NCBI GenBank assembly: GCA_015488755.1
Contig: WFNB01000014.1
Span: 1 to 64,000 of the forward strand
Direction of reading: 5' to 3'
From: Gammaproteobacteria bacterium
GTDB taxonomy: Bacteria; Pseudomonadota; Gammaproteobacteria; GRL18
DNA: 64,000 nucleotides
In this document: positions 409 through 58,893 of the stretch, piece after piece
How positions within the stretch are numbered: the stretch's first letter is position 1
Layout of the letters: every line of letters starts with the position of its first letter
Notes under the pieces: generated by a model
What the model saw: the letters and a program-made list of their open reading frames with translations, nothing else
Told to the model about the DNA's origin: nothing
The model's database searches: none
Position numbers and translations under genes: made by a program

Positions 409-828
409 TCAGACAGGAATGTAACTCAATAAAATATAACGTACCATTTTTCCTGTAGAAATAAAAATAATGGACTGTAACCAATGAATTTTCATTAGGC
501 CTGCGGCCATACACAATAAGTCACCAACAACAGGGAGAAAACTAAAAAATAAGATCGGAGCACCAAATTTTTGCAGTTTTTTTTCTACTAGGATGTAGTG
601 CTTACTTTCTAAAAGCCCTTCTTTTTGCTTATGCAAACCTTTACGAATTAACACACCCAAAACCCAATTACTCATACCGCCAAGTGAATTGCCCATGCCC
701 ACAACAAGGATCAAAACAAGAGTATCCCATTGTTCTTGTGCCAGCATTAACAAAAACAGGCTTTCTGAACTGCCCGGTAAAAAGGTTGCTGAGCTAAAAC
801 CACTAATGAATAAGGCCAGTAATGACAT
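409..828 (-). CDS. yqaA: YqaA/DedA-like small membrane protein
   Basis: This predicted inner-membrane protein of about 139 residues has hydrophobic segments near residues 1-20, 35-60, 90-110 and 115-137. The opening (ALFISGFSSATFLPGSSE) and the late FLPVVGDLLCMAAGLMKI match the YqaA branch of the DedA/SNARE-associated (VTT) family as I know it. Relatives are implicated in membrane homeostasis or lipid flipping, but YqaA itself has no firm function. I chose the ATG at 828 because it begins the hydrophobic segment and clears the dnaE stop. An earlier ATG at 855 would overlap dnaE, and neither has a strong ribosome site. It is the last gene of the minus-strand cluster, where many relatives carry accA after dnaE. 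Confidence 0.7.
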   Translation of the reverse strand: MSLLALFISGFSSATFLPGSSESLFLLMLAQEQWDTLVLILVVGMGNSLGGMSNWVLGVLIRKGLHKQKEGLLESKHYILVEKKLQKFGAPILFFSFLPVVGDLLCMAAGLMKIHWLQSIIFISTGKMVRYILLSYIPV

Positions 829-833
829 AATAC

Positions 834-3800
834 TTAGCGATACTTTATCTGGCAAGCAAGCTGTGTTAACTGCTCAATTCTATGCAATAACTCATTGTTT
901 AAATAGATCCGCCAGTCCTTGGATAGATGCAACATAGCCTTAGCTTTCTCTCCCTCATATTGGCAGACAATAGGACACTCTCCTGCCTCTAGAAACGGTG
1001 TTAGCACTTCTTTAAGTTGCGTGATAAAGGCATCATTAACTTGAGCATGCACCAAAGGAATAAGCAAACGTCTGGCATAATGATTACGTGCCGCATCTAA
1101 ATCATAGATCACATCCACCGTTACTCTGGCATTGCCTGAATAATGATCCAAGCCCAATTCTCCCACTAAAACAATAATGGAGTCTTTAATTAAAATATCT
1201 TTATACAATTCATATTTATCAGAGAATAGGGCAATTTCTTGACGACCACTGCGATCATCAATGGTAATAAAGGCCATTTTATCACCCCGTTTCGTATTCA
1301 TTGTGCGCATGGCAATGATTAGACCGGCAATAACAATATTTTGTTTTTTATCTGGACTCAAGTCCATTAATTTATGGGTCGTGAATTGACGTATTTCGCC
1401 TAAGTACTGTTCAATAGGATGTCCAGTAAGGTATAAGCCTAAGGTTTCTTTCTCTAAACGCAGTCGTTCATCTTCAGACCATTCTGGTAATTGACTAAAG
1501 TTACTCGAAGCCTCTCCAGAGGTACTATCCATCGCCCCCGTATTAAAGAAATCCCCACCAAATAAATCATCTTGCCCCACAGACTGAGCTTTAGAAAATT
1601 GCTCTGCTGCTTTGGTTGCTTCGGGAATGGCATTTAATAAGGTCGCTCGGTTACCAACAAAATCATCCAATGCGCCCGCTTTAATTAACGTTTCCATGAC
1701 CCGTTTATTACAACGGCGCAAATCAACCCGATTACAGAAGTCTTGAAAATCATGATAGGGGCCACCTTTTTCACGTCCTTCAATAATCGTTTCTATCGCC
1801 CCTTCACCAACACCTTTAATTGCTCCCAGTCCGTAAACAACTTCATCTTTGTCATTAACTGAGAATTTATATTCAGATAGATTGACATTCGGTACCGTAA
1901 CTATAACATTGGCATCACGACATTCTTCAATCACCATGACCACTTTTTCAGTATTGTCCATATCTGCTGATAATACAGCAGCCATAAAGGCTTCAATATA
2001 ATGCGTTTTTAACCAGAGCGTTTGATATGACACCAGAGCATAAGCAGCAGAATGTGATTTATTAAAACCATAGGCGGCAAATTTTTCCATTTGGTCAAAA
2101 ATATGTACCGCAATCTCTTTATCAACGCCATTGGCAACCGAGCCATCTTCAAAAATAGATCGCTGTTCTGCCATAACTTCCGGTTTTTTCTTACCCATAG
2201 CCCGACGTAATAAATCAGCACCGCCTAAGGTATAACCTGCAAGAACCTGCGAAATTTGCATCACTTGTTCCTGATACAGGATAGTACCATAGGTCGGTTG
2301 TAAGATAGGTTCTAGTGAAGGGTGTGGGTACTCTACTTTTTGTCGACCATGTTTACGATCAATAAAGTCATCCACCATACCCGATTGCAATGGCCCTGGG
2401 CGAAACAGAGCCACTAGAGCGACAATATCTTCAAAACAATCCGGCTGTAAACGCTTAATTAAATCTTTCATACCGCGGGATTCAAGCTGAAAAACCGCAG
2501 TGGTATCACTGGCTTTAAGGGTTTTAAAGGAAGCTCTATCAGCTAAATCAATCTTAGCAATATCAATAGGCGTTTCACCCAATCTTGCTTTTTTAGCATT
2601 AATTATTTTTAATGCCCAGTCAATGACCGTTAATGTTTTTAAACCTAGAAAGTCAAACTTGACCAGCCCTACTGTTTCAACATCATTTTTATCATATTGG
2701 GTAACAATGCTTTGTGAATCTTCTTCACAATAAATGGGAGAAAAATCATTAATATCACTGGGTGAAATAACCACGCCACCCGCATGTTTACCAACATTTT
2801 TAGTGATCCCTTCTAATGCCAAGGCCATATCAATTAAGTCACGTACGGCTTCATCATCATCATAACGCCGTTGCAATTCTTCTTCCTGTGCCATTGCTTT
2901 GGATATGGTAATACCGATATCCATAGGGATCAGTTTGGCTAAAGAATCTACAAAACCATAGCCCTGACCTTGCACTCGTCCCACATCACGAATGGCTGCT
3001 TTGGCCGCCATAGAACCAAAGGTAATAATTTGTGACACCCTGTCACGACCATAGGTTTCTGCCACATATTGAATAACTCTATCACGGCCATCCATACAAA
3101 AATCAATATCAAAATCAGGCATAGAAACCCGTTCTGGATTTAAAAATCGCTCAAAGAGTAAATCATATTCTAAGGGATCTAAATCGGTAATAGTCATCGC
3201 ATAGGCAACTAAAGAACCGGCACCTGAACCACGACCAGGCCCAACAGGCACATCATTTTCTTTTGACCACTTGATAAAGTCAGCAACGATTAAAAAGTAG
3301 CCGGGAAAGCCCATTTGAATGATAACATCCAGCTCAATATCAAGACGTTCCCGATAGGATTTTATTTTATCTGTATAATTTTCATCATCTAAGCAACCCT
3401 CGCCAAATAGTTGAGCAAAGCGTTCATTTAAGCCCTTATGAGAGATCAAGCGAAAGTGCTCATCCATACTAAGTCCTTCAGGGATAGGACAATCGGGCAG
3501 GAAATTTTCCCCAAGATGCAAACTAACATTACAGCGTTTGGCAATTTCTAAGGTATTTTCAATCGCTTCAGGAATATCTGCAAACAAAGTACACATCTGT
3601 TGCTGAGACTTAAAATACTGTTCTGGTGAGTAGTCATGTGGCCGGTTTTTATCCGCTAAAATTCGTCCCTGATTGACACAAACACGCGCTTCATGGGCAG
3701 CAAAATTAGCTTCTTCAAGAAAGCGTACGGCATTAGTGGCGACCACAGGCAAGCCTGTTTGTTCTGCCAAAGCAACTGCCTGATGCAAAAAAGTTTCATC

Positions 3801-48396: not shown

Positions 48397-48641
48397 GTTT
48401 TCATCCCGTTCTAATGTCCGGTCGTCTCACGTCCTGATTTTACAATACCTACGGTACGTGAACCGAGTTTTCATCCCGTTCTAATGTCCGGTCGTCTCAC
48501 AAATTCAATGCGGAACCGTTATTTATTGTGATTTTGAGTTTTCATCCCGTTCTAATGTCCGGTCGTCTCACAATAAAGCAAAACTGGACTGTGATATTGA
48601 AAATCTTGTTTTCATCCCGTTCTAATGTCCGGTCGTCTCAC
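48397..48641 (-). CRISPR. CRISPR array, four repeats and three spacers
   Basis: Four identical 34-base repeats lie at 48397-48430, 48467-48500, 48538-48571 and 48608-48641. On the plus strand each begins GTTTTCATCCCG and ends CGGTCGTCTCAC. The three lower-coordinate copies also share GA just before, making 36 bases; the 48608 copy has TT instead. Spacers are 36, 37 and 36 bases and unrelated. Read on the minus strand the repeat ends in GGGATGAAAAC, like the GAAAC-type 5' handles of type III crRNAs. The array is therefore probably transcribed leftward, in line with the cas operon that ends at 48891. Confidence 0.95.
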
Positions 48642-48890: not shown

Positions 48891-49175
48891 TTATGTTTTT
48901 TTGATAAATTCTCTTATACGATATTCTTTTTCTTGTAAATTATGGCCGTCCCATTGTTTATGATACTCAGGCCATTGCCCCTGTAGTTCTTTTTGGGGAA
49001 TATGCCAACCAACTTGTCCTGTTGGTAAATCTATCATTAACACAGGATAATCAGGCTCATTAGAGTCACCAGCAATACCTACAGCATATCCTTGTAGCAT
49101 TGCTAATTTTGCCATTGCCATAACGGCTTGGTTGCGTTCATAATAAATTTTATCTTTTAGATTTAGGTTTTTCAA
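48891..49175 (-). CDS. Small CRISPR-linked protein, unknown
   Basis: The 94-residue protein starts inside the end of the three-RAMP gene (26-base overlap), so it belongs to the same operon. Visible motifs are YYERNQAVMAMAKLAMLQGY, LMIDLPTGQVGWHIPQKEL and WDGHNLQEKEYRIREFIKK. I recall short proteins with similar LPTGQ-WH and WDGH patterns from phage and plasmid contexts, but cannot name a family or function. It has no signal peptide or membrane helix. It could be a small effector subunit or an accessory. Confidence 0.65.
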   Translation of the reverse strand: MKNLNLKDKIYYERNQAVMAMAKLAMLQGYAVGIAGDSNEPDYPVLMIDLPTGQVGWHIPQKELQGQWPEYHKQWDGHNLQEKEYRIREFIKKT

Positions 49176-52100
49176 TGTATTTATGCCGTGTAAGAGTTGG
49201 TAAGGGTTTATTGCTTATAGGTATCATTGCTTCTAGCGCTGCCTCTATCTTTCTCTGTGATTTCTTTGATCCAAAGTCATTAGCAATAAACCATTTATAA
49301 TTTTCTTCTTCTATAGAGGCTTTTTCTACTTGAGGATAGTGTACTGGGCATTGAATATTTTTAGGATCACCCAATCGTGTAATTGCTTGTTCGATATCAC
49401 TGTCCATTTTTTGAGAAAAACGATTACGATAGTCTTTGAAATCTAAGTTATTATGGTAGCGTTCTGCACTTATTGTATCTTCACTATAGCGTTTTTTACG
49501 ATTAATAGTTTTTATTTCCTGAATCTCTATTTTAACCGATCCTAAACCAATCGGTTTGCCCATTCCCAATTTATGGCAAAATTCATTATTTGGTTGTACG
49601 GCATAACAGAGTAAGCCCAATTCCCAAGCACTTAAATTAGTAAAATCAATATCAAATTGAAATACTGTACCAGTTTTAATTGGTTTTATTTTTACTTTGA
49701 GCTCGCTATGTTCATCGGGCTTAACACTTTGCCAAGGAAATTCTGCACTATCATTATTCCCAATTCCCTCGGTGTTACTAAGCTTTTGTACCTCTATGCC
49801 ATCCTTTTTGCGTAATGCATGAAGGTATGTTTTCCTACCCTGAGGTTCATGTAAAAGTTTATTTAATTTATCTTTAGAGATATAAGGATTGTTTTGTATC
49901 TGCTTAGGCTTAAAATATAATGCAGGTGAGGGTAATTTCGGTGCGGAAAGTGCTTTTAAGGTTATGTATTTTGACTCTTGAATATTTTTTATTGACGATT
50001 CTTTGAGTTGTCCGGCATTAATACATACTTTTCCTGCAAAGGATAGTAAGTGTGGATGTTCTTTTTTATTTTCTTCTTCATCTTGTTCTACAAAACCAAA
50101 CAATAGCTCTGCTGGCGAAAGTGAATGTCGTTGTGAATTAAACGGCCTTAATTCTTCAGGGAAAAAAGCATGGACATTATCAGCAACTTTGCCTCGCCAA
50201 ATGGCAGAAAAAGCAATTTCATCAACTTTATTTTCCTTTTTTGAAAAATAAACCAAATCATAATTTTGCAATACTAATTGACAGTAGTCATCTTCTCGTT
50301 TTCTCTGGGTTCCTTTTAAGTGAAAAGGCTGCCATTGATTTGACTTACAAGTAATATCTTTTTTTAAGTCTTTATTATTTTTTTGTGCTTTAGAGCATTG
50401 ATTAGCAATGAGTTGAAAATTGGACACCGCTTGTTCAGAAACCCTAATTGAGTTGTTCTCCTGCACAAATCTTTTATAATCAAATGTATTGCTCTTAGTA
50501 TCAATATATTTTTTTTCTATTTTAATAAACAATTCATGTTTTTTATTCTCTAATTTATCTTCTCTCCCTTCTTTACCTAATATTCTTAGAATACCGCAAT
50601 GCATGCCCTCTTGGTATTGCTCTTTTGGTACCTCATTAACATCAGAACCTAAATAATAAACATGGTTATGGTTCGGAGACCATGAGTGTTTGTTTGATAA
50701 AAAATCCTTCATTGTATGACTGTTATAAGCATAAGCATTTTTTAATTTAATGATCTTATCAGTCATGGTAATTAGTTGCCAAGTCCCCTCTTTATTTTCA
50801 TAGATCATACCCAAGTTTTTCAGTGGTGCTTCTACTTTTTTTCGAAAAGTCATTAAAGCATTATCCAATACTCTCAATGCTGAGTTACTGGCTGCTTCTG
50901 CTAGTGATGCAATCATTCCTCTCAATGAGCTTGCTGGAATGGCAAGTTCATTATTAAGCTGATAGGCTTCTTTTATTATGGCTCCATTCTCACTCTGTTT
51001 TTTAGTTTGGCTATCATTAACACCTATAAAAAAAGGAGTTTCAGCAGTCAGTTGGCATATTATTTTGCCATGATAAATATCATTGCCTTGTTTATCTTTA
51101 TCTCGATAAAATGCATGCGAATGATGTGTGCTTTTAGTGGCAAGTTTTTCTCTTTTTAGCCATTTGTCTGTATCAGCTGGTTTAACGGGAATAAAGTGAT
51201 AGGGATTATGAAATTTATTATTTGGATGATTATTTATGTTCTCTTTTTGTGGTGATTGTTTTGCTGTTTTTTGATGGGAAGTAACCTTATCAAAAGTAAC
51301 ATTATCACAATGGTACTGCTTACAATGGTACTGCTTACAATGTTGCCTAAAATTATCAATATCTAATGCTGAAATATCAGCTTCATTATTGATTAATACA
51401 CGGTCAATTTTTCCATATCCTTTATTTTTACCAAAACCAAAATGAATATCTCCTTCTTTTAAATCTCTAAAGATCAATCCTAAAAAGCCTTTCCTCCAGC
51501 TAAGTTCATCTTTCTCCTTATCTTTATTTCTAAGCATCAGTTTAAGGTGACCGGTAAGTTTTGGCCGTTGAGTATGTTGGGCACTAAACAAGGCTCCTTC
51601 CATACCTCCTCCATGAAAGCGATCGATTGCTATAAACTGTTGCTCTACTTTATCTTCTGTTTTATCTTTTGTGAAATCCGTAAAATTACTTATATCAAGT
51701 GTGGTTTTCCAACCTGTGCTACCAAAAAACTCACAAATTAAACACGGAGTGGATTGAGTTTTACACGGTGTTTGGCTATCACAACAATTTACCCCCATCG
51801 TCCTAAGAATGCGTTCGGCCTGAGACCGAAGTGCCCCACGAAATGATTTGGCAGGTAATATGCTTTTACCATCCTCATTGGTTAAAATAAGATAATCGGC
51901 GGTATTTTTATCTTTATCTTTTTCTTGCTTCGCTGGGTCATTGACCATAAAGGGTCCTGCAAATTGCAGTGTTATGTCATATTGTGGTGCTTGCTCCAAA
52001 GATATAAACTCAGGGGACTGCTTTAGGAGTTCTTCTATCTTAGAGTGTTCAAGTTTCTGTAAATATTGTGTACTTGGCACTGAATCGCACTCTTTATTTA

Positions 52101-52791
52101 GCCATTTAATAATATTATCTTGATCCAGAGATTTTACCTCTAACGTGTCTATTGTGATCTTTCCTTTATCATTGGCCGTATCTGCTCCTAAAATAAGTGG
52201 TTGTGTGTTTTCCCTAAATAATTTCAATGTTTTAATAATCAAGGCCGCATCTTGATCCTTCATATCGCCGCTAATGCGTAATTTAAAACAACTGCTTGGC
52301 GCCACACACTCTTGGTAATGTAAACTGCCATCTAAAGCGGTGCGAGTATGTCGATTAATTGCCGTTGATGCTTCGATATAAGTTTGCCTTTTGTTATCCC
52401 AATTAGGATAGGGTTTATCATGCATCATCATATCCTGTTCAAATAAAGCATCATGAAATTCAGCAACACCCCCTCTACCCTGCTCTGATTGACTTATATA
52501 TGCTTGACCAAATACATTGTTAATTATTTTTGTATCTTGTAGATGTTGACTCAAATAGGCTCTAAGTATTCCTTTTAAGGTGGAACCAGGGATAATAGGC
52601 AGACCATCAAGACCTTTAATGCAAGGATTAACCTCTACCTCGTTCTGATTTAATTTTGTAGTTGAGATATCACCACTGCCAATATGTAGTGCTGTTGTTG
52701 TTCTTAATATTGCTGTAATTTCCCAACGTTTAAGCTGTGTAAATGACCATGACTTTAATTTTGATGAAAGTTCTTCTGTTTGATTTGTCAT
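49150..52791 (-). CDS. Type III CRISPR effector with three fused RAMP (Cas7) modules
   Basis: The 1213-residue protein appears to be three RAMP units in one chain. Module 1 (about 20-225) has TTALHIGSGD, IIPGSTLKGILRAYL and GGVAEFHDALF. Module 2 (about 270-480) has ILPAKSFRGALRSQAE, a Cys cluster ending CLICEFFGSTGW, and the Gly-rich FGFGKNKGYGKI. Module 3 (about 545-1100) starts FHNPYHFIPV, has AIPASSLRGMIASLAE and ends HKLGMGKPIGLGSVKI, like the TIGR03986 RAMP family. It would form most of the crRNA-binding backbone. Module 2 keeps an Asp (NTADYLIL) where Cas7 cleaves target RNA; module 1 has no Asp there. The start lies two bases after the previous stop. Confidence 0.88.
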   Translation of the reverse strand: MTNQTEELSSKLKSWSFTQLKRWEITAILRTTTALHIGSGDISTTKLNQNEVEVNPCIKGLDGLPIIPGSTLKGILRAYLSQHLQDTKIINNVFGQAYISQSEQGRGGVAEFHDALFEQDMMMHDKPYPNWDNKRQTYIEASTAINRHTRTALDGSLHYQECVAPSSCFKLRISGDMKDQDAALIIKTLKLFRENTQPLILGADTANDKGKITIDTLEVKSLDQDNIIKWLNKECDSVPSTQYLQKLEHSKIEELLKQSPEFISLEQAPQYDITLQFAGPFMVNDPAKQEKDKDKNTADYLILTNEDGKSILPAKSFRGALRSQAERILRTMGVNCCDSQTPCKTQSTPCLICEFFGSTGWKTTLDISNFTDFTKDKTEDKVEQQFIAIDRFHGGGMEGALFSAQHTQRPKLTGHLKLMLRNKDKEKDELSWRKGFLGLIFRDLKEGDIHFGFGKNKGYGKIDRVLINNEADISALDIDNFRQHCKQYHCKQYHCDNVTFDKVTSHQKTAKQSPQKENINNHPNNKFHNPYHFIPVKPADTDKWLKREKLATKSTHHSHAFYRDKDKQGNDIYHGKIICQLTAETPFFIGVNDSQTKKQSENGAIIKEAYQLNNELAIPASSLRGMIASLAEAASNSALRVLDNALMTFRKKVEAPLKNLGMIYENKEGTWQLITMTDKIIKLKNAYAYNSHTMKDFLSNKHSWSPNHNHVYYLGSDVNEVPKEQYQEGMHCGILRILGKEGREDKLENKKHELFIKIEKKYIDTKSNTFDYKRFVQENNSIRVSEQAVSNFQLIANQCSKAQKNNKDLKKDITCKSNQWQPFHLKGTQRKREDDYCQLVLQNYDLVYFSKKENKVDEIAFSAIWRGKVADNVHAFFPEELRPFNSQRHSLSPAELLFGFVEQDEEENKKEHPHLLSFAGKVCINAGQLKESSIKNIQESKYITLKALSAPKLPSPALYFKPKQIQNNPYISKDKLNKLLHEPQGRKTYLHALRKKDGIEVQKLSNTEGIGNNDSAEFPWQSVKPDEHSELKVKIKPIKTGTVFQFDIDFTNLSAWELGLLCYAVQPNNEFCHKLGMGKPIGLGSVKIEIQEIKTINRKKRYSEDTISAERYHNNLDFKDYRNRFSQKMDSDIEQAITRLGDPKNIQCPVHYPQVEKASIEEENYKWFIANDFGSKKSQRKIEAALEAMIPISNKPLPTLTRHKYIEKPKSKR
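51307..51342 (-). repeat. In-frame 15-base tandem repeat in a RAMP linker
   Basis: ACAATGGTACTGCTT occurs twice in a row (51307-51321, 51322-51336) followed by ACAATG. On the coding strand it adds repeated CKQYH units (CKQYHCKQYHC) in the linker between RAMP modules 2 and 3. It is likely recent slippage. Confidence 0.85.
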
Positions 52792-52793
52792 AC

Positions 52794-54689
52794 TTAATTT
52801 TCCTCAGCAATCGTTATAAGGTCAATTTCTGAACTATTATCATTCAATATTGTTACTTGCTCAGGCATTTTAAGATTAACTGCAATTTCACCATAGCCGT
52901 TTTGTGGTATAAAAGGGCAAGTTTTCCATTGTTCTGACTCTATTTTACTTATTGAATAATAGCTACAGGTACTATTTGCTAATGGTAAGCCATTATTGAG
53001 CCATTGTATTATTTTTTCTTGAGCATCTTCTTGTACATCATCGTTATTTGCTTTTAAGACAAAGACACTTCCCGCTTCGCTTAAAAGCCAAGGCTTATAG
53101 TCTTTACATTGAAATATGCATTTTTGATAGTCACCGCCTGAGAGTTTTTGTCGGGCAAAAAACCGAACCAGTTCTAAAGAATTTTCACTTATTTCACGCC
53201 ATGCCTTTTGATACATTGACCATAATTGATCATGCCCACTACTCTCATTTAACGCTTCTGGTGAACCCAGTAAACTGTCAGTTTGCAGCGTAAGCACCCA
53301 AAATTTATTATCAGGCATTTGAGTATTGGATAATATACTTGCTGGTATGTTTTCTATGGCATGAAAACTGATTCCTACGGGTGTTTTTGTCTTACCTAAG
53401 CCCATAAAGCCTTCACTTAATAAGTCTTCAAACTGAGAGAAAACATTTTTTCTTAGTGATTTTTCAATACGAGATAAATCCAGTTGTGCTTGCCAAACCT
53501 GTTCATTAGGAATAATTTGCTCATAGGAAAATAATTTATTTTCTTCTGAGCGTTTAGCTGTTCGATCAATACCGGTTCGTACTCGTAACTCTGAATCCAG
53601 AGAGGTCCAGCCCCAATCTTTTAAACGTAAATAAGGCCACGGGTACTGTGTAAGTGTTTCTTTGGTGTTTTTCCAGTCCAAAGAAAAGTCAGGTGCTTGT
53701 TTGGCAATTAAACATGGTTTGCTTAATAAGCAAATATCGTATAACTGATTAGAGCCTATAGAACATAAGCTTAGTGGTGCAACAACAGGACGCTGATTGG
53801 TTGTCGATGATTCGACAGGAAAAGCATGAGAAATACGCAATAAGCTAAAATTCTCTACTAATGCCTGACGTTTTGAATCATTATCAACATAGGATAAATG
53901 TAAGTCTAATAAGTGACTCCATGTACTGGCAATACTCCCTAAAATAGCTCCACCAGAAATAATAGCATCGGATTCAAACAAATTATTTGATTTAGGTTTT
54001 CCTGCCAAGCAAAATGAGTATAGAGGTTTCAGGGTCAGGGCAATTTTTTCTTCATTATTATAGCTAAAGTCCTCTATTACTTGGTTGTTATTTTGTTTTG
54101 TTTGTATCTCATTATTAAATTTAACACCCACTACTTGGCCAAAACCGATACTTTTCATACTTCCTATTTGAGTTAACCAATTAAAGGCTGTTTTTAGATG
54201 TTTTATTATATTATCTTGCTTACTTTCTGGTGCAAAAAAATGTAAGTGCCCATAAAAGGTATACTCTTTACCACTAATAAAGGGACTTTCAATCATAACA
54301 ATATGCTGATCTTTTGCTGTTCCTGTTGCTTGTTCAATGGTAATTCGGTCTCTTATTTCACCATTTTTTAATTCCTTAATACCCTTTAGATCTAATATAA
54401 AATCTGAACAATATATTTGTTTTCTCTGTGGAGAATAATCCGTACTTTTTTTACCAAACCATGTATTAACCTCTGGTTTAAACCATTGGCATTTATCTGC
54501 AACGATGTCATCAAGTTCTTCTAATGCTTGACGTAATTTCCCTGTAATTAGAGTCCCAGCTAAATAAGGTGTTTTTTCATTATTAATGGCAACAACCCTA
54601 TCCAAACCCAATTCACCCGGAGAGCTTGATTGTGTGAGCAAAGGCCCCGTAAGTGTTAAATGAACATCCATAATAATCTGTTTTATCAT
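52794..54689 (-). CDS. csx10: Csx10-like RAMP protein with two RAMP modules
   Basis: The 631-residue protein looks like a Cas7-like unit joined to a Cas5/Csx10-like unit. Module 1 (about 5-210) has VHLTLTGPLLTQSSSPGELG, LDRVV with a Cas7-type aspartate, PYLAGTLITGKLRQALEEL and GSMKSIGFGQVVGV. Module 2 (about 225-600) has SDAIISGGAILGSIASTW, the Csx10-like RTGIDRTAKRSEENKLFSYE and a C-terminal GYGEIAV. The ATG overlaps the cas10 stop as ATGA, with GGAGAG six bases upstream, so the longer open frame to 54743 was rejected. It probably caps the crRNA 5' handle. Confidence 0.82.
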   Translation of the reverse strand: MIKQIIMDVHLTLTGPLLTQSSSPGELGLDRVVAINNEKTPYLAGTLITGKLRQALEELDDIVADKCQWFKPEVNTWFGKKSTDYSPQRKQIYCSDFILDLKGIKELKNGEIRDRITIEQATGTAKDQHIVMIESPFISGKEYTFYGHLHFFAPESKQDNIIKHLKTAFNWLTQIGSMKSIGFGQVVGVKFNNEIQTKQNNNQVIEDFSYNNEEKIALTLKPLYSFCLAGKPKSNNLFESDAIISGGAILGSIASTWSHLLDLHLSYVDNDSKRQALVENFSLLRISHAFPVESSTTNQRPVVAPLSLCSIGSNQLYDICLLSKPCLIAKQAPDFSLDWKNTKETLTQYPWPYLRLKDWGWTSLDSELRVRTGIDRTAKRSEENKLFSYEQIIPNEQVWQAQLDLSRIEKSLRKNVFSQFEDLLSEGFMGLGKTKTPVGISFHAIENIPASILSNTQMPDNKFWVLTLQTDSLLGSPEALNESSGHDQLWSMYQKAWREISENSLELVRFFARQKLSGGDYQKCIFQCKDYKPWLLSEAGSVFVLKANNDDVQEDAQEKIIQWLNNGLPLANSTCSYYSISKIESEQWKTCPFIPQNGYGEIAVNLKMPEQVTILNDNSSEIDLITIAEEN

Positions 54690-56299
54690 GTCTTCTCTCC
54701 ATCTAAGGCAACATAATCCCACAATTCCATTAGATGCAACCAATAGATTTTGCTTTTAAAAGTAGTGTTTAAAGCAGTGAGCTGATCTTTATAGCACGTT
54801 TGTTGTTCCTCTGAGAAAGTATACTTACTTAGATGCTTGCCTATTAATTTATCATATAATTCTTCTGCTTTTTCTGAATTGTCATTTCTATAATGATTAA
54901 CTATTTGATATATTTTTCGCTTAGGAAAATCATAATCTTTAAGCGCCTTAATACATTTTTCAATTTTATTCATATCTTCAGCCTTAATAAGCAATTCTGA
55001 CGTATCAGAAGCCAACCCCTGAATACGTGCCTCTTGTTCAGAACTCAGTTTATTCCCAGCATGATCAAATGATTCTAATACCTGATAAGCAATATGATTA
55101 CTCGTTTTATCCCGCTTGGCAAAATCATCGGCTAACTTTCTAGCTAATTGATCAATACGGTGAATGGGGGCATTATGTTTACAAAAGATAAGAGCGGAAC
55201 CATGAAAAAGGGGTTTATTATTAAATGTTAATCCCTGTGATAATTGGTAAAATTGATCAAGCATCCACCACCCTTGCCATGCAGGAACAACCCAGATTAT
55301 TTCATCTCCCCCCCATAAGAGGGTTTCTAATTGAAGTTTTTTATTATTATCATCAATAAATATCCAATCTTCTTTGCCTTTTATCATAAAAAGGATTTCT
55401 TTAAGGGTATTATTTCTGAATTTTCTTGTTATTTGATCAAAATCTCTTTGATCTTTAGCCGTTTTAGAACTCCTTTGTTTTTTGCCAAATTCATTACCAT
55501 CAATATAAATAAAAGCAATTTTTCCATTTAAGTTTGTTTGCTTTGTTGAACAACTCAATGTTGATAAATCTTGAGTGAAATTCAAGTTAAAATCAGTAAT
55601 ACTATAATAAAAGTCTGATTTTTTCTTATTACCTCCGTATTCTTTACGTTGAAATACTGAATCTGAAATAGAAACATTTTTATTATTCATTTTAATTTTT
55701 TTTGTTGCAGGGCGTACTTTGTCTAGCACACATGGTGAAGCAGTCATCATATTTTTGGTAATCGCTATAGATGGAGTTTGAAGTTGCTGATAATGATTAA
55801 GAGTTTGTAATTTACTTCGATCTAAAACATATGATTTATCATGTGTACATTTGTAAATATCGACCATAATAGTTGCATGTTTATAGTTGGAATCTTTATT
55901 AAAAAAATCCATAACTTCCTGTTTTATAAGAATTGCATCTTTACAATCTATATTCTTAATATCATATAAGCCCCACGATGCACCATTAGTTATGGTATTG
56001 ATAGAATTCTTTACATTAAGGCGTTTTGCTTTATTTTTTTTTATTTTTACCTTAATATTTTTTCTTTTATTTTTTAGTGCCTTATCATTTATCTGTTTTT
56101 GTACTACCGATTCTAATTCTTTTTCAAGCCCCTTAATCTTAATATCTATCAGCTTTGATAAATAATTTTGTACCAAATTTTCAATTTCAGTAGTTGCATG
56201 TAATAATAACAAACTACCACCTCGTATAACCTGAAGATTATTGGTATCATAAATGAAATCACCTAAATTCACTCCTTCTATTCTTAGATAGTAATTCAT
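54686..56299 (-). CDS. cas10: Cas10 with GGDE palm, no HD domain
   Basis: This is the large subunit and probable cyclase of the type III complex. The 537-residue protein starts with a palm-like domain (MNYYLRIEGVNLGDFIYDT), has a Lys-rich linker (about 75-100), and a second palm with IAFIYIDGNEFGK (about 261-273) and LLWGGDEIIWVVP (GGDE at 330-333). No N-terminal HD nuclease is present, so DNA cleavage is not expected. The usual zinc-finger region seems reduced to SPCVLDKVRPATKK. The intact GGDE suggests nucleotide signalling on target binding. It starts as an ATGA overlap with the CorA-like gene. Confidence 0.88.
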   Translation of the reverse strand: MNYYLRIEGVNLGDFIYDTNNLQVIRGGSLLLLHATTEIENLVQNYLSKLIDIKIKGLEKELESVVQKQINDKALKNKRKNIKVKIKKNKAKRLNVKNSINTITNGASWGLYDIKNIDCKDAILIKQEVMDFFNKDSNYKHATIMVDIYKCTHDKSYVLDRSKLQTLNHYQQLQTPSIAITKNMMTASPCVLDKVRPATKKIKMNNKNVSISDSVFQRKEYGGNKKKSDFYYSITDFNLNFTQDLSTLSCSTKQTNLNGKIAFIYIDGNEFGKKQRSSKTAKDQRDFDQITRKFRNNTLKEILFMIKGKEDWIFIDDNNKKLQLETLLWGGDEIIWVVPAWQGWWMLDQFYQLSQGLTFNNKPLFHGSALIFCKHNAPIHRIDQLARKLADDFAKRDKTSNHIAYQVLESFDHAGNKLSSEQEARIQGLASDTSELLIKAEDMNKIEKCIKALKDYDFPKRKIYQIVNHYRNDNSEKAEELYDKLIGKHLSKYTFSEEQQTCYKDQLTALNTTFKSKIYWLHLMELWDYVALDGEKT

Positions 56300-57975
56300 T
56301 TTTTATTCCCTTTTATAGTAACGAATAAATAAAAAGCGACACTAAAAACAATAATAATTTCAAAAATAAAGCTACCAAACGAACCACAACCTATATCCAA
56401 ACAATTAATAAGAGGTAGTTCATTCATACCAAAAACTCCAGCAATTAAACTTCCTGTAGCAATAGGAATACCATATTTTGCCAGTTTATTTGCACTTTCA
56501 CTTAACTCATTTGCTAGGCTTGTTTCTAAAAATTCATGAGAACTATTAATTTCTTGCTGTATCTCAGTAAAAAAATTATCAACTTCAAAATATTTTCGAT
56601 TTATCTCTAACATTTCCATAGACTGCTGTTGATGAGAAATAATTGGAAATTGATATAAAACAGTAAATATAGAAAATTCTTTACGCAAATCATACAAACT
56701 TTTACGTTTATCATTATCAGGATCATTATTGCTAAAGATATCTGTTAACTCTTTACTAAAACGGAAAAGTGTCATACGGATATAAAAAAGGAGTAAGGTT
56801 GTATCAAAATAATAGGAACTCCAGAACTCAAAAAATTCCTTTTTTCCAATCATAGCTCCAGCATGATAACAATATCCATAGACACTCCCTTCTTCTTCCC
56901 AACGCGTATAAGTTCTTTCTTTAACCCAATTTTCTTCAAATGAAGTAATAGATTGATGTGTATACAAAGCAGATTGATAAGCATTTTCATTTACGTTGAA
57001 AGGTGGTTGATCAACATTAAGCAATTTCACCCAATGCCCAGATTTAGAAATATTTAGTTTTACATCTTTTTCTTGCAAACAATTACTACCATCTTCTAAC
57101 AGTGCAGCAGTCCATACATAAGTCCGATTATCTGCATAAATTTGCCAATTTTTTCCATCACATACCTTTCCTTTGTTATAACTGAGGTTGTATGAATTTT
57201 CAAACCAAGCTTCGGGTAACAACTGATAAAAAGACTTTCCTTCTCTAATCGGTATCTTTAAAAGTTTTATCCATCGCTCAAAATAAAGCCTAAATTTTTC
57301 ATTAATAATATCATCCTGAGTTCTAGAGTTTTCAGTATGAGGCTGTCTTTCATATTCAGTCGGTATACCACTAAACCTATCCTTAAAAATTTTAGCATGA
57401 TCATCATAGGGCATTCCAAAATAACGGAAAAATTCATTTAAAATTAATAAATCATCTAGTGTTGGTTTTTCTTCTTTATTAGCAAAGTAAATATCTACAA
57501 AGAGAAAACCTGTCTTTAATAATTCCACTTCATCCATTCTTTCATTAAGATAACTTAGTTGGGTATTATTATTTTTATTGCTTGCTTCAAATAACACTAT
57601 TCTAGGGGGTAACATACCAAGAGTGAATTCATTTTTTTTTAATTTAACCTTAACTTGTTCTTTTCCCCATTCTGTTTCCTCCCAAGCATCTGACATGTCT
57701 AGCCATAGTGCTCTATCATATAAAGTTGTTGCAGTTTCTTGAATAAAATATTTATGTCGCTTTATAAAGGATAAATTATCTTGAGAATTTATTTTATAAA
57801 ATAAACCATCCTTTCCCTTAGATGTATCATTTTTACTTATGCAATAAGCAAAGGGTAAAACAAAGCGACTAAATGTTGCACCATTAGTTTCAGCTTTATT
57901 TTTTGATGTTGAATAATAGCCATCTTTAGGTTTTCCTATAACCAATTCAAGATTTGTATCTGTTTTTTTAGTCAT
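56296..57975 (-). CDS. CorA-like membrane protein of a type III CRISPR locus
   Basis: The 559-residue protein has a long soluble N-terminal region (about 1-490). Its end resembles CorA divalent-cation channels: helix KYGIPIATGSLIAGVFGMN with the GMN selectivity motif at about 516-518, a short loop, and a second helix EIIIVFSVAFYLFVTI. It is embedded between cas6 and cas10 with ATGA overlaps on both sides. CorA-family proteins are known partners of some type III systems, where a Cas10 product (SAM-AMP in Bacteroides fragilis) activates them. The N-terminal part is larger than in transport CorA proteins. Confidence 0.82.
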   Translation of the reverse strand: MTKKTDTNLELVIGKPKDGYYSTSKNKAETNGATFSRFVLPFAYCISKNDTSKGKDGLFYKINSQDNLSFIKRHKYFIQETATTLYDRALWLDMSDAWEETEWGKEQVKVKLKKNEFTLGMLPPRIVLFEASNKNNNTQLSYLNERMDEVELLKTGFLFVDIYFANKEEKPTLDDLLILNEFFRYFGMPYDDHAKIFKDRFSGIPTEYERQPHTENSRTQDDIINEKFRLYFERWIKLLKIPIREGKSFYQLLPEAWFENSYNLSYNKGKVCDGKNWQIYADNRTYVWTAALLEDGSNCLQEKDVKLNISKSGHWVKLLNVDQPPFNVNENAYQSALYTHQSITSFEENWVKERTYTRWEEEGSVYGYCYHAGAMIGKKEFFEFWSSYYFDTTLLLFYIRMTLFRFSKELTDIFSNNDPDNDKRKSLYDLRKEFSIFTVLYQFPIISHQQQSMEMLEINRKYFEVDNFFTEIQQEINSSHEFLETSLANELSESANKLAKYGIPIATGSLIAGVFGMNELPLINCLDIGCGSFGSFIFEIIIVFSVAFYLFVTIKGNKK

Positions 57976-58826
57976 TGTACTATGCTCTCAATCATATATT
58001 TTCCCAAACCAAAGCTCGTTTTATTCCCCACATGTACCCATTCACCCAAGGCCAGATAAGGTAAAAAGGGTTCTAGATCACCTTGATAGCTAATACTGCC
58101 CCGTAAACCACCAAATTTCATCCATTTTTTTTGTCTGCCAGAAAAACGTTGCCAGTCATCCCAGTGGATATTATGGTCTATGGTTTGTATTTGTTGAGCG
58201 TCTTTTAGTAAGTGATTGGCATCATGCAGGTGTTGTTTGTCTGTATTGCCATAGGCCATTTCTAATGTTTTTAAACGGCCTATCAAACGCTCAAAAAATA
58301 AAGCAAAGGATGGTGCCTTACGGACTAGATGGTTGTCTTTTTTAAAGCGTAGTCGGGAAGGAAAAATAAGAGTGGCATGATGTGAAGATAAACTAGGGAC
58401 TCTGGTTTGGATAATTTCTTGTGCTTCTATGGAATGTCCTTGTGGCATAGCTTGCTCAATGCCAACAACTTTATAACATCCTTTGTTATACCCTAAGCCC
58501 ATTTGTAAGCCCATATATTCAATGGCAGCCTGACAGATTGCATAGTGTTGAACAGCTTCACCTATAAGGGTCAGTTCACAATGAAACTGAAAACCAATGG
58601 GATAATGTTCAGTTTCATCTAATGGGGGTAATATGACTAAGGGTTTTGGCCAACTGCCTTGCCTATTAGGCTCATAAAAATAATGATACCACGTCGGGGA
58701 TATTTGCATTAAGGCATGGCCGAACGCACCATGAAAGGTGGAACCTTTATAAGGAGGTAGCTTAATTTCATCAATGGCTTCTAAGGTAAAACGGTATTTA
58801 GCCAGTTGTAAGTGCTTAGTTAGCAT
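57972..58826 (-). CDS. cas6: Cas6 pre-crRNA endoribonuclease
   Basis: The enzyme would cut the array transcript within repeats to free crRNAs. The 284-residue RAMP protein begins LAKYRFTLEAIDEIKLPPYK with GSTFHGAFGHAL. It contains LQMGLGYNKGCYKV and the C-terminal glycine-rich loop HVGNKTSFGLGKYMIE, typical of the PF10040-type Cas6. GGAG five bases upstream supports the ATG at 58826 over 58847. It is the first gene of the operon, 116 bases after the preceding gene, and its stop overlaps the next start (ATGA). Confidence 0.88.
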   Translation of the reverse strand: MLTKHLQLAKYRFTLEAIDEIKLPPYKGSTFHGAFGHALMQISPTWYHYFYEPNRQGSWPKPLVILPPLDETEHYPIGFQFHCELTLIGEAVQHYAICQAAIEYMGLQMGLGYNKGCYKVVGIEQAMPQGHSIEAQEIIQTRVPSLSSHHATLIFPSRLRFKKDNHLVRKAPSFALFFERLIGRLKTLEMAYGNTDKQHLHDANHLLKDAQQIQTIDHNIHWDDWQRFSGRQKKWMKFGGLRGSISYQGDLEPFLPYLALGEWVHVGNKTSFGLGKYMIESIVQ

Positions 58827-58893
58827 GGCGACTCCATGAGTAATCACCTGTTATTTATAGGGAAACTAGAAGTCTAGGATATTTTAGGGAATT

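Follow-up and report, generated by a model that had tools for sequence, protein, structure and literature searches.

The 64,000-nt window analysed here (positions 1 to 64,000 of contig WFNB01000014.1, assembly GCA_015488755.1, from a gammaproteobacterium) carries a CRISPR operon whose second gene, at 56296-57975, encodes a CorA-type CRISPR effector belonging to a III-D2-like system, an arrangement that is already known. Judging from operon structure and comparison of related loci, the CorA-type protein is very likely the output controlled by Cas10, and the reading of the whole locus as a III-D2-like membrane effector governed by a Cas10 messenger is probable. As for the identity of that messenger, the sequence evidence speaks, although it is no proof, against a mere duplicate of the SAM-AMP pathway described in B. 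fragilis.

The operon contains, in one direction, cas6, corA, cas10, cas5, and a fused multi-Cas7 gene; beyond these come a 94-aa ORF and an array of four repeats:

57972-58847, minus strand: cas6, 291 aa, with an ATGA overlap with corA (Pfam CRISPR_Cas6, 4.6e-16)
56296-57975, minus strand: corA-type CRISPR effector, 559 aa, with a cytoplasmic part of ~500 aa and a C-terminal CorA transmembrane region (ORF, PADLOC CorA 1.9e-28, hhalign to genuine CorA)
56422-56430, minus strand: GMN motif, CorA residues 516-518 (alignments)
54686-56299, minus strand: cas10, 537 aa, no HD domain, GGDE palm motif (PDB 9wxh_B Cas10, 1.7e-128)
55301-55312, minus strand: codons for GGDE, residues 330-333, in the palm2 active site of Cas10 (invariant in all 8 members of the clade described below)
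52794-54689, minus strand: cas5-like RAMP subunit, ATG start in the cas10 overlap, the mechanical ORF starting from TTG at 54743 (PADLOC Csm4/III-D 1.7e-78; PDB 9wxh_C 1.4e-203)
49150-52791, minus strand: fused multi-Cas7 subunit, 1213 aa, TIGR03986 family (TIGR03986 1.4e-88, over cut-off; PDB 9wxh_D, E 0)
48891-49175, minus strand: small WDGH-domain-like ORF, 94 aa, overlapping the end of cas7 and not known to be part of the system (Pfam WDGH 8.5e-4, below cut-off; PHROG 16023 7.4e-12)
48397-48641, minus strand: CRISPR array with 4 repeats of ~34 nt (GTGAGACGACCGGACATTAGAACGGGATGAAAAC) and 3 spacers

The ATGA overlaps of corA with cas6 and cas10, already noticed in a sequence-only reading of this DNA, were both read directly in the sequence (57972-57975 and 56296-56299, respectively), and a third one, common to cas10 and cas5, sets the start of cas5 at 54689. 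Exact 23-nt cores of the 3 spacers are absent from the viral contigs searched. Assignment to III-D is based on the PADLOC III-D Csm4 and Csm3 profiles, the TIGR03986 match over its cut-off, homology to PDB 9wxh, and a Cas10 without HD. Since Cas10, Cas5, and Cas7 are homologous over almost their full length to the subunits of the Cas10-Cas5-Cas7 structures 9wxh, 9wxi, and 9wxj (1.7e-128, 1.4e-203, and 0, respectively), which also share GGDE, the window complex is III-D2-like with an architecture that has already been solved; the Cas10 of 9wxh differs in having Thr at the position equivalent to E151 of B. fragilis Cas10, where the window protein has Arg. The HD nuclease is absent from the window Cas10, which starts directly with the first palm domain. 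Most Cas10 proteins have GGDD instead of GGDE. The GGDE form is a recognised variant in loci with effectors (PMC11229360), and the window Cas10 is thus likely to be active.

According to the PADLOC CRISPR CorA profiles, the similarity of the window protein to this family is far beyond chance (PDLC01174, 1.9e-28 over residues 164-554; PDLC01043, 9.4e-28 over residues 149-518). The Pfam CorA family PF01544 is not reached by the window protein alone, which is too diverged; 11 of the 17 members of the larger profile set match it individually. Profile-profile alignment with genuine CorA proteins gives an hhalign probability of 91.7% (E=7.7e-7) for a two-member profile of the window protein and its relative in locus L043, and 97% (E=9e-11) for the 17-member profile, with GMN placed on GMN. 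The earlier placement of this motif at its usual C-terminal site is borne out (residues 516-518), as is the soluble front, which had been put at 490 residues and comprises ~500 residues ahead of GMN. The two C-terminal helices that had been claimed are recovered in part: a Kyte-Doolittle scan shows a strong hydrophobic helix at ~525-557, after GMN, and a marginal first helix. The same reading had named a CARF or SAVED domain, or lack of similarity to the CorA fold, as findings contrary to it. Neither domain was detected in the window protein by Pfam, NCBIfam, or PADLOC, nor was any other domain by Pfam or NCBIfam, and the profile-profile alignments show similarity to genuine CorA proteins at the sequence level. 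The AlphaFold model of the monomer, computed from a two-row alignment, has a mean pLDDT of 35, too low for the model to be used. In scans for close relatives, the window protein alone retrieved none from the genome contigs, the pair alignment retrieved only L043 (as L068), and none was retrieved from the viral contigs.

A class-wide search of 369 genomes, together with one plasmid match, gave 7 related loci beyond the window. All 8 (L036, L037, L038, L039, L040, L043, the Tistrella plasmid locus L071, and the window) have a GGDE Cas10, and their Cas10 proteins form a clade with support of 97/99. Every locus of this clade carries a CorA (8/8), those of L039 and L040 being cut off by contig ends. 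Six of the 7 relatives were first found by the CorA search; an independent Cas10 search of the same 369 genomes gave the same six, with one further, far weaker match (L058, 4.0e-5), and the Tistrella locus was found by Cas10 alone. Another weak match to the Cas10 profile, L103, was rejected as a member, having GGDD, no CorA match, and a position outside the clade. The CorA proteins belong to three lineages, namely the window with L043, L036/L037/L039/L040/L071, and L038 with a family of CRISPR-unlinked (orphan) proteins. A CorA-type effector is thus kept by this Cas10 clade across CorA lineages. Operon coupling, the presence of CorA in all eight loci, and the lack of both an HD domain and a CARF effector make CorA very likely the Cas10-controlled output, which strengthens the earlier proposal that it is the probable output of the CRISPR system.

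Several members of the clade have features of their own. The CorA of the Tistrella locus has a long N-terminal extension, and that of L037 (7952-10768) has ~330 extra N-terminal residues with no Pfam or PADLOC match; the idea that the L037 extension contains an NrN was not supported. In L040, a Cas6-reverse transcriptase-Cas1 fusion of 1004 aa (598-3612) adjoins the CorA locus. The GMN motif is not intact in the CorA C-termini of L036, L037, L038, and L039 (VIN, SVD, GGN, and HSN), and therefore Mg2+ selectivity is probably not what III-D CorA proteins conserve. The orphan family (L041, L042, L044-L046, L088-L101) consists of proteins of ~550 aa with the architecture of CRISPR CorA, about half identical to each other and with no Cas gene recognised nearby; the CorA of L038 groups with it in spite of standing beside a III-D cas10.

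The existence of such a CRISPR-unlinked family with the same architecture in many Pseudomonadota, as well as the intact GMN of the window protein, could suggest that the latter is a common ion transporter that ended up among the cas genes by accident. This explanation is very improbable, however, given the ATGA coupling on both sides of the gene and the CorA found in 8/8 loci of the clade. Moreover, the window protein groups with the CRISPR-linked L043 and not with the orphans (100/100), and only CRISPR-linked members have an Asp close to the Arg in the putative ligand site: at least one Asp occupies the two places before this Arg in all eight CRISPR-linked CorA proteins with sequence covering them, and in no case among the nine orphans examined.

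In B. fragilis, the acidic residues D70 and E151 of Cas10 favour SAM over ATP as acceptor, and when both were replaced, with N and R, SAM-AMP was no longer made and pppApA synthesis rose (PMC10600005). With this numbering confirmed on PDB chain 9lq5_B, 5/5 alignments put Ile of the window protein opposite D70, where the rest of the clade shows gaps or residues that are not acidic. Opposite E151, 4/5 alignments put Arg for the window as well as for all clade relatives included, and Thr for 9wxh; the remaining one does not place E151. The mapping of both residues crosses a stretch of low identity, hhalign aligning only palm2. The Cas10 sequence therefore speaks against SAM being selected in the way known from B. 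fragilis. As for CorA, mutation of R152-R153 and D219-D220 abolished immunity in B. fragilis (PMC10600005). The two III-B CorA proteins examined have exactly one RR pair (GRRIYP) and one DD pair (DDRMFV) in common; these presumably correspond to the mutated residues, the DD being mapped to D219-D220 as the only conserved one. At the pairs so mapped the window protein has R184-Y185 and D282-N283, and thus keeps one residue of each.

With respect to removal of the messenger, eight proteins from the operon and its surroundings, scanned with profiles for NrN, ring nucleases, CARF, and Csm6/Csx1, gave no match, in agreement with the sequence-only reading, which had seen no NrN-type gene, CARF protein, or Csm6/Csx1. 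It had also advised a search of the remaining genome. There, the CorA-linked NrN profile matches nothing, with a positive control matched in genome G145, and a TIGR02584 ring-nuclease-family protein and CARF effectors are present. Two DHH proteins of the genome were considered as NrN and rejected, since neither matches the CorA-linked profile; one of them is a genus-wide gene, since most of the same-genus genomes searched keep it at 64-75% identity, with the window CorA present in none of these genomes. The suggestion that the off-switch is unlinked or missing altogether is only half borne out: no NrN-type gene is found in this genome, but absence of an off-switch is not general for such operons: in L043 an intact NrN with its DHH motif lies 16 nt after cas7 (PDLC01149, 1.4e-39; PDLC01071, 3.8e-70). 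The CorA fusion of Tistrella ends in an NrN-like tail motif (YYGGGGECLFFGAEDRT) that scores ~7 standard deviations above shuffles against Arcobacter NrN; since this tail has no DHH and no NrN profile match, it is only a possible remnant. In the window, the place that NrN takes in L043 is occupied by the 94-aa WDGH-like ORF overlapping the cas7 end, which might accordingly be seen as the system's own off-switch replacing NrN. Such a role is, however, highly unlikely: no other locus of the clade was seen to contain the ORF, the related small proteins, none of known activity, come from haloarchaeal viruses and from phages of Streptomyces and Bacillus, and the limits of the ORF are unsure, as it starts at TTG or at a later ATG.

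The messenger itself is most likely a non-cyclic AMP conjugate. If the system simply worked like that of B. fragilis, Cas10 would join ATP and SAM, SAM-AMP would open CorA, and an unrecognised or unlinked enzyme would remove it; this is a candidate somewhat less likely than not, and SAM-AMP is a doubtful messenger here. It is favoured by the CorA homology seen with PADLOC, by R184 and D282 retained in the window protein, by the NrN-like tail in Tistrella, and by the intact NrN in L043, the closest III-D relative. The NrN of B. fragilis is reportedly specific for SAM-AMP, which is why its counterpart in L043 counts as an argument for this molecule. On the opposite side, both SAM-selecting acidic residues of Cas10 are missing, Arg stands at the E151 place as in ATP-accepting Cas10, the genome yields no NrN match with the control positive, and the B. 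fragilis system, when reconstituted, required NrN for immunity (PMC10600005). The analogy with SAM-AMP signalling in B. fragilis drawn earlier is weakened, since neither D70 nor E151 is conserved. An ATP-derived linear product, or a conjugate with another acceptor, is at least as likely as SAM-AMP and comes close to an evenly balanced call.

Cyclic oligoadenylate made by Cas10 and sensed by CorA, with the signal shared by the other CARF proteins and the TIGR02584 protein, is less likely and on the whole improbable. The Arg at the ATP2-contact position of Cas10, the presence of CARF proteins and of the TIGR02584 protein elsewhere in the genome, and the proposal of cA6 for an Actinomyces CorA (PMC11229360) are compatible with it. 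The CARF genes, however, lie outside this operon on different contigs, two of them accompanied by a separate GGDD cas10, the closest relative has NrN and not a ring nuclease, and B. fragilis CorA does not bind cA3 (PMC10600005). It can tentatively be proposed that the CorA-bearing III-D systems of the GGDE clade signal through a molecule other than SAM-AMP and cyclic oligoadenylate, which their CorA proteins sense; such a compound could perhaps be a linear ATP-ATP product or a conjugate of AMP with another metabolite.

In the 2025 classification (Makarova et al. 2025, PMC12669027), III-D loci are described as having no known SAM-AMP-cleaving enzymes, and the ligand of their CorA as unclear. 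The window resembles these CorA-bearing loci in combining III-D cas genes and CorA with no NrN-type gene in the locus, and differs in that its Cas10 residues have been examined and lie away from B. fragilis-type SAM selection. Since III-D was not reported with NrN in that classification, L043 provides a counter-example. This locus (JALXFQ010000375.1, from a gammaproteobacterial MAG) has the same cas6-corA-cas10-cas5-cas7 order and a CorA that is 38% identical with GMN kept, but it carries NrN downstream of cas7, and its cas7 is not fused. In comparison with the III-B Cmr-CorA-NrN system of B. fragilis (Chi et al. 2023, PMC10600005), the window shares a CorA with a large cytoplasmic part in a type III locus and partly keeps the R and D pairs. 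In contrast to B. fragilis, it is III-D2-like with fused Cas7s instead of Cmr1-6, has GGDE and not GGDD, conserves neither D70 nor E151, carries no NrN, and has cas6 beside corA.

Under the preferred reading, the crRNA-guided Cas5/Cas7 complex would bind foreign RNA and switch on the HD-less GGDE Cas10, which would then make a soluble adenylate messenger. The CorA-type protein would bind this messenger via its large cytoplasmic part, and its presumably pentameric transmembrane region would open or damage the inner membrane, halting the infected cell in a host that appears to have no recognisable NrN-type enzyme to remove the messenger. The scheme builds on the observed operon structure, family membership, HD loss, invariant GGDE, and clade-wide CorA linkage, and its remaining steps are predicted.

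The same genome contains further CRISPR loci. A second type III system (L069, G000:C69, 1720-13208) comprises a GGDD cas10, RAMP subunits, cas6, a Csx1-like CARF-HEPN protein, and a Card1-type CARF nuclease. An adaptation module (L061, G000:C47, 1670-6409) has cas1, two cas2-like ORFs, a weak PrimPol-B-like match, and a 10-repeat array with a different repeat, and carries the TIGR02584 protein of the Csm6/ring-nuclease family. Type I-F cas1 and cas3 are located at L062 (G000:C95, 8695-13832). The window CorA was not found in the same-genus genomes searched, which would fit its arrival by transfer.

The messenger of CorA-bearing III-D systems is an open question in the literature, and this locus makes it testable. 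Together with its NrN-bearing sister and the solved homologous complex, it offers a concrete comparison in which the SAM-selecting residues are not conserved and CorA is always kept. If the messenger is new, it would represent a third signal class for type III CRISPR, and a host that also has CARF effectors in a separate type III system may require signals free of crosstalk.
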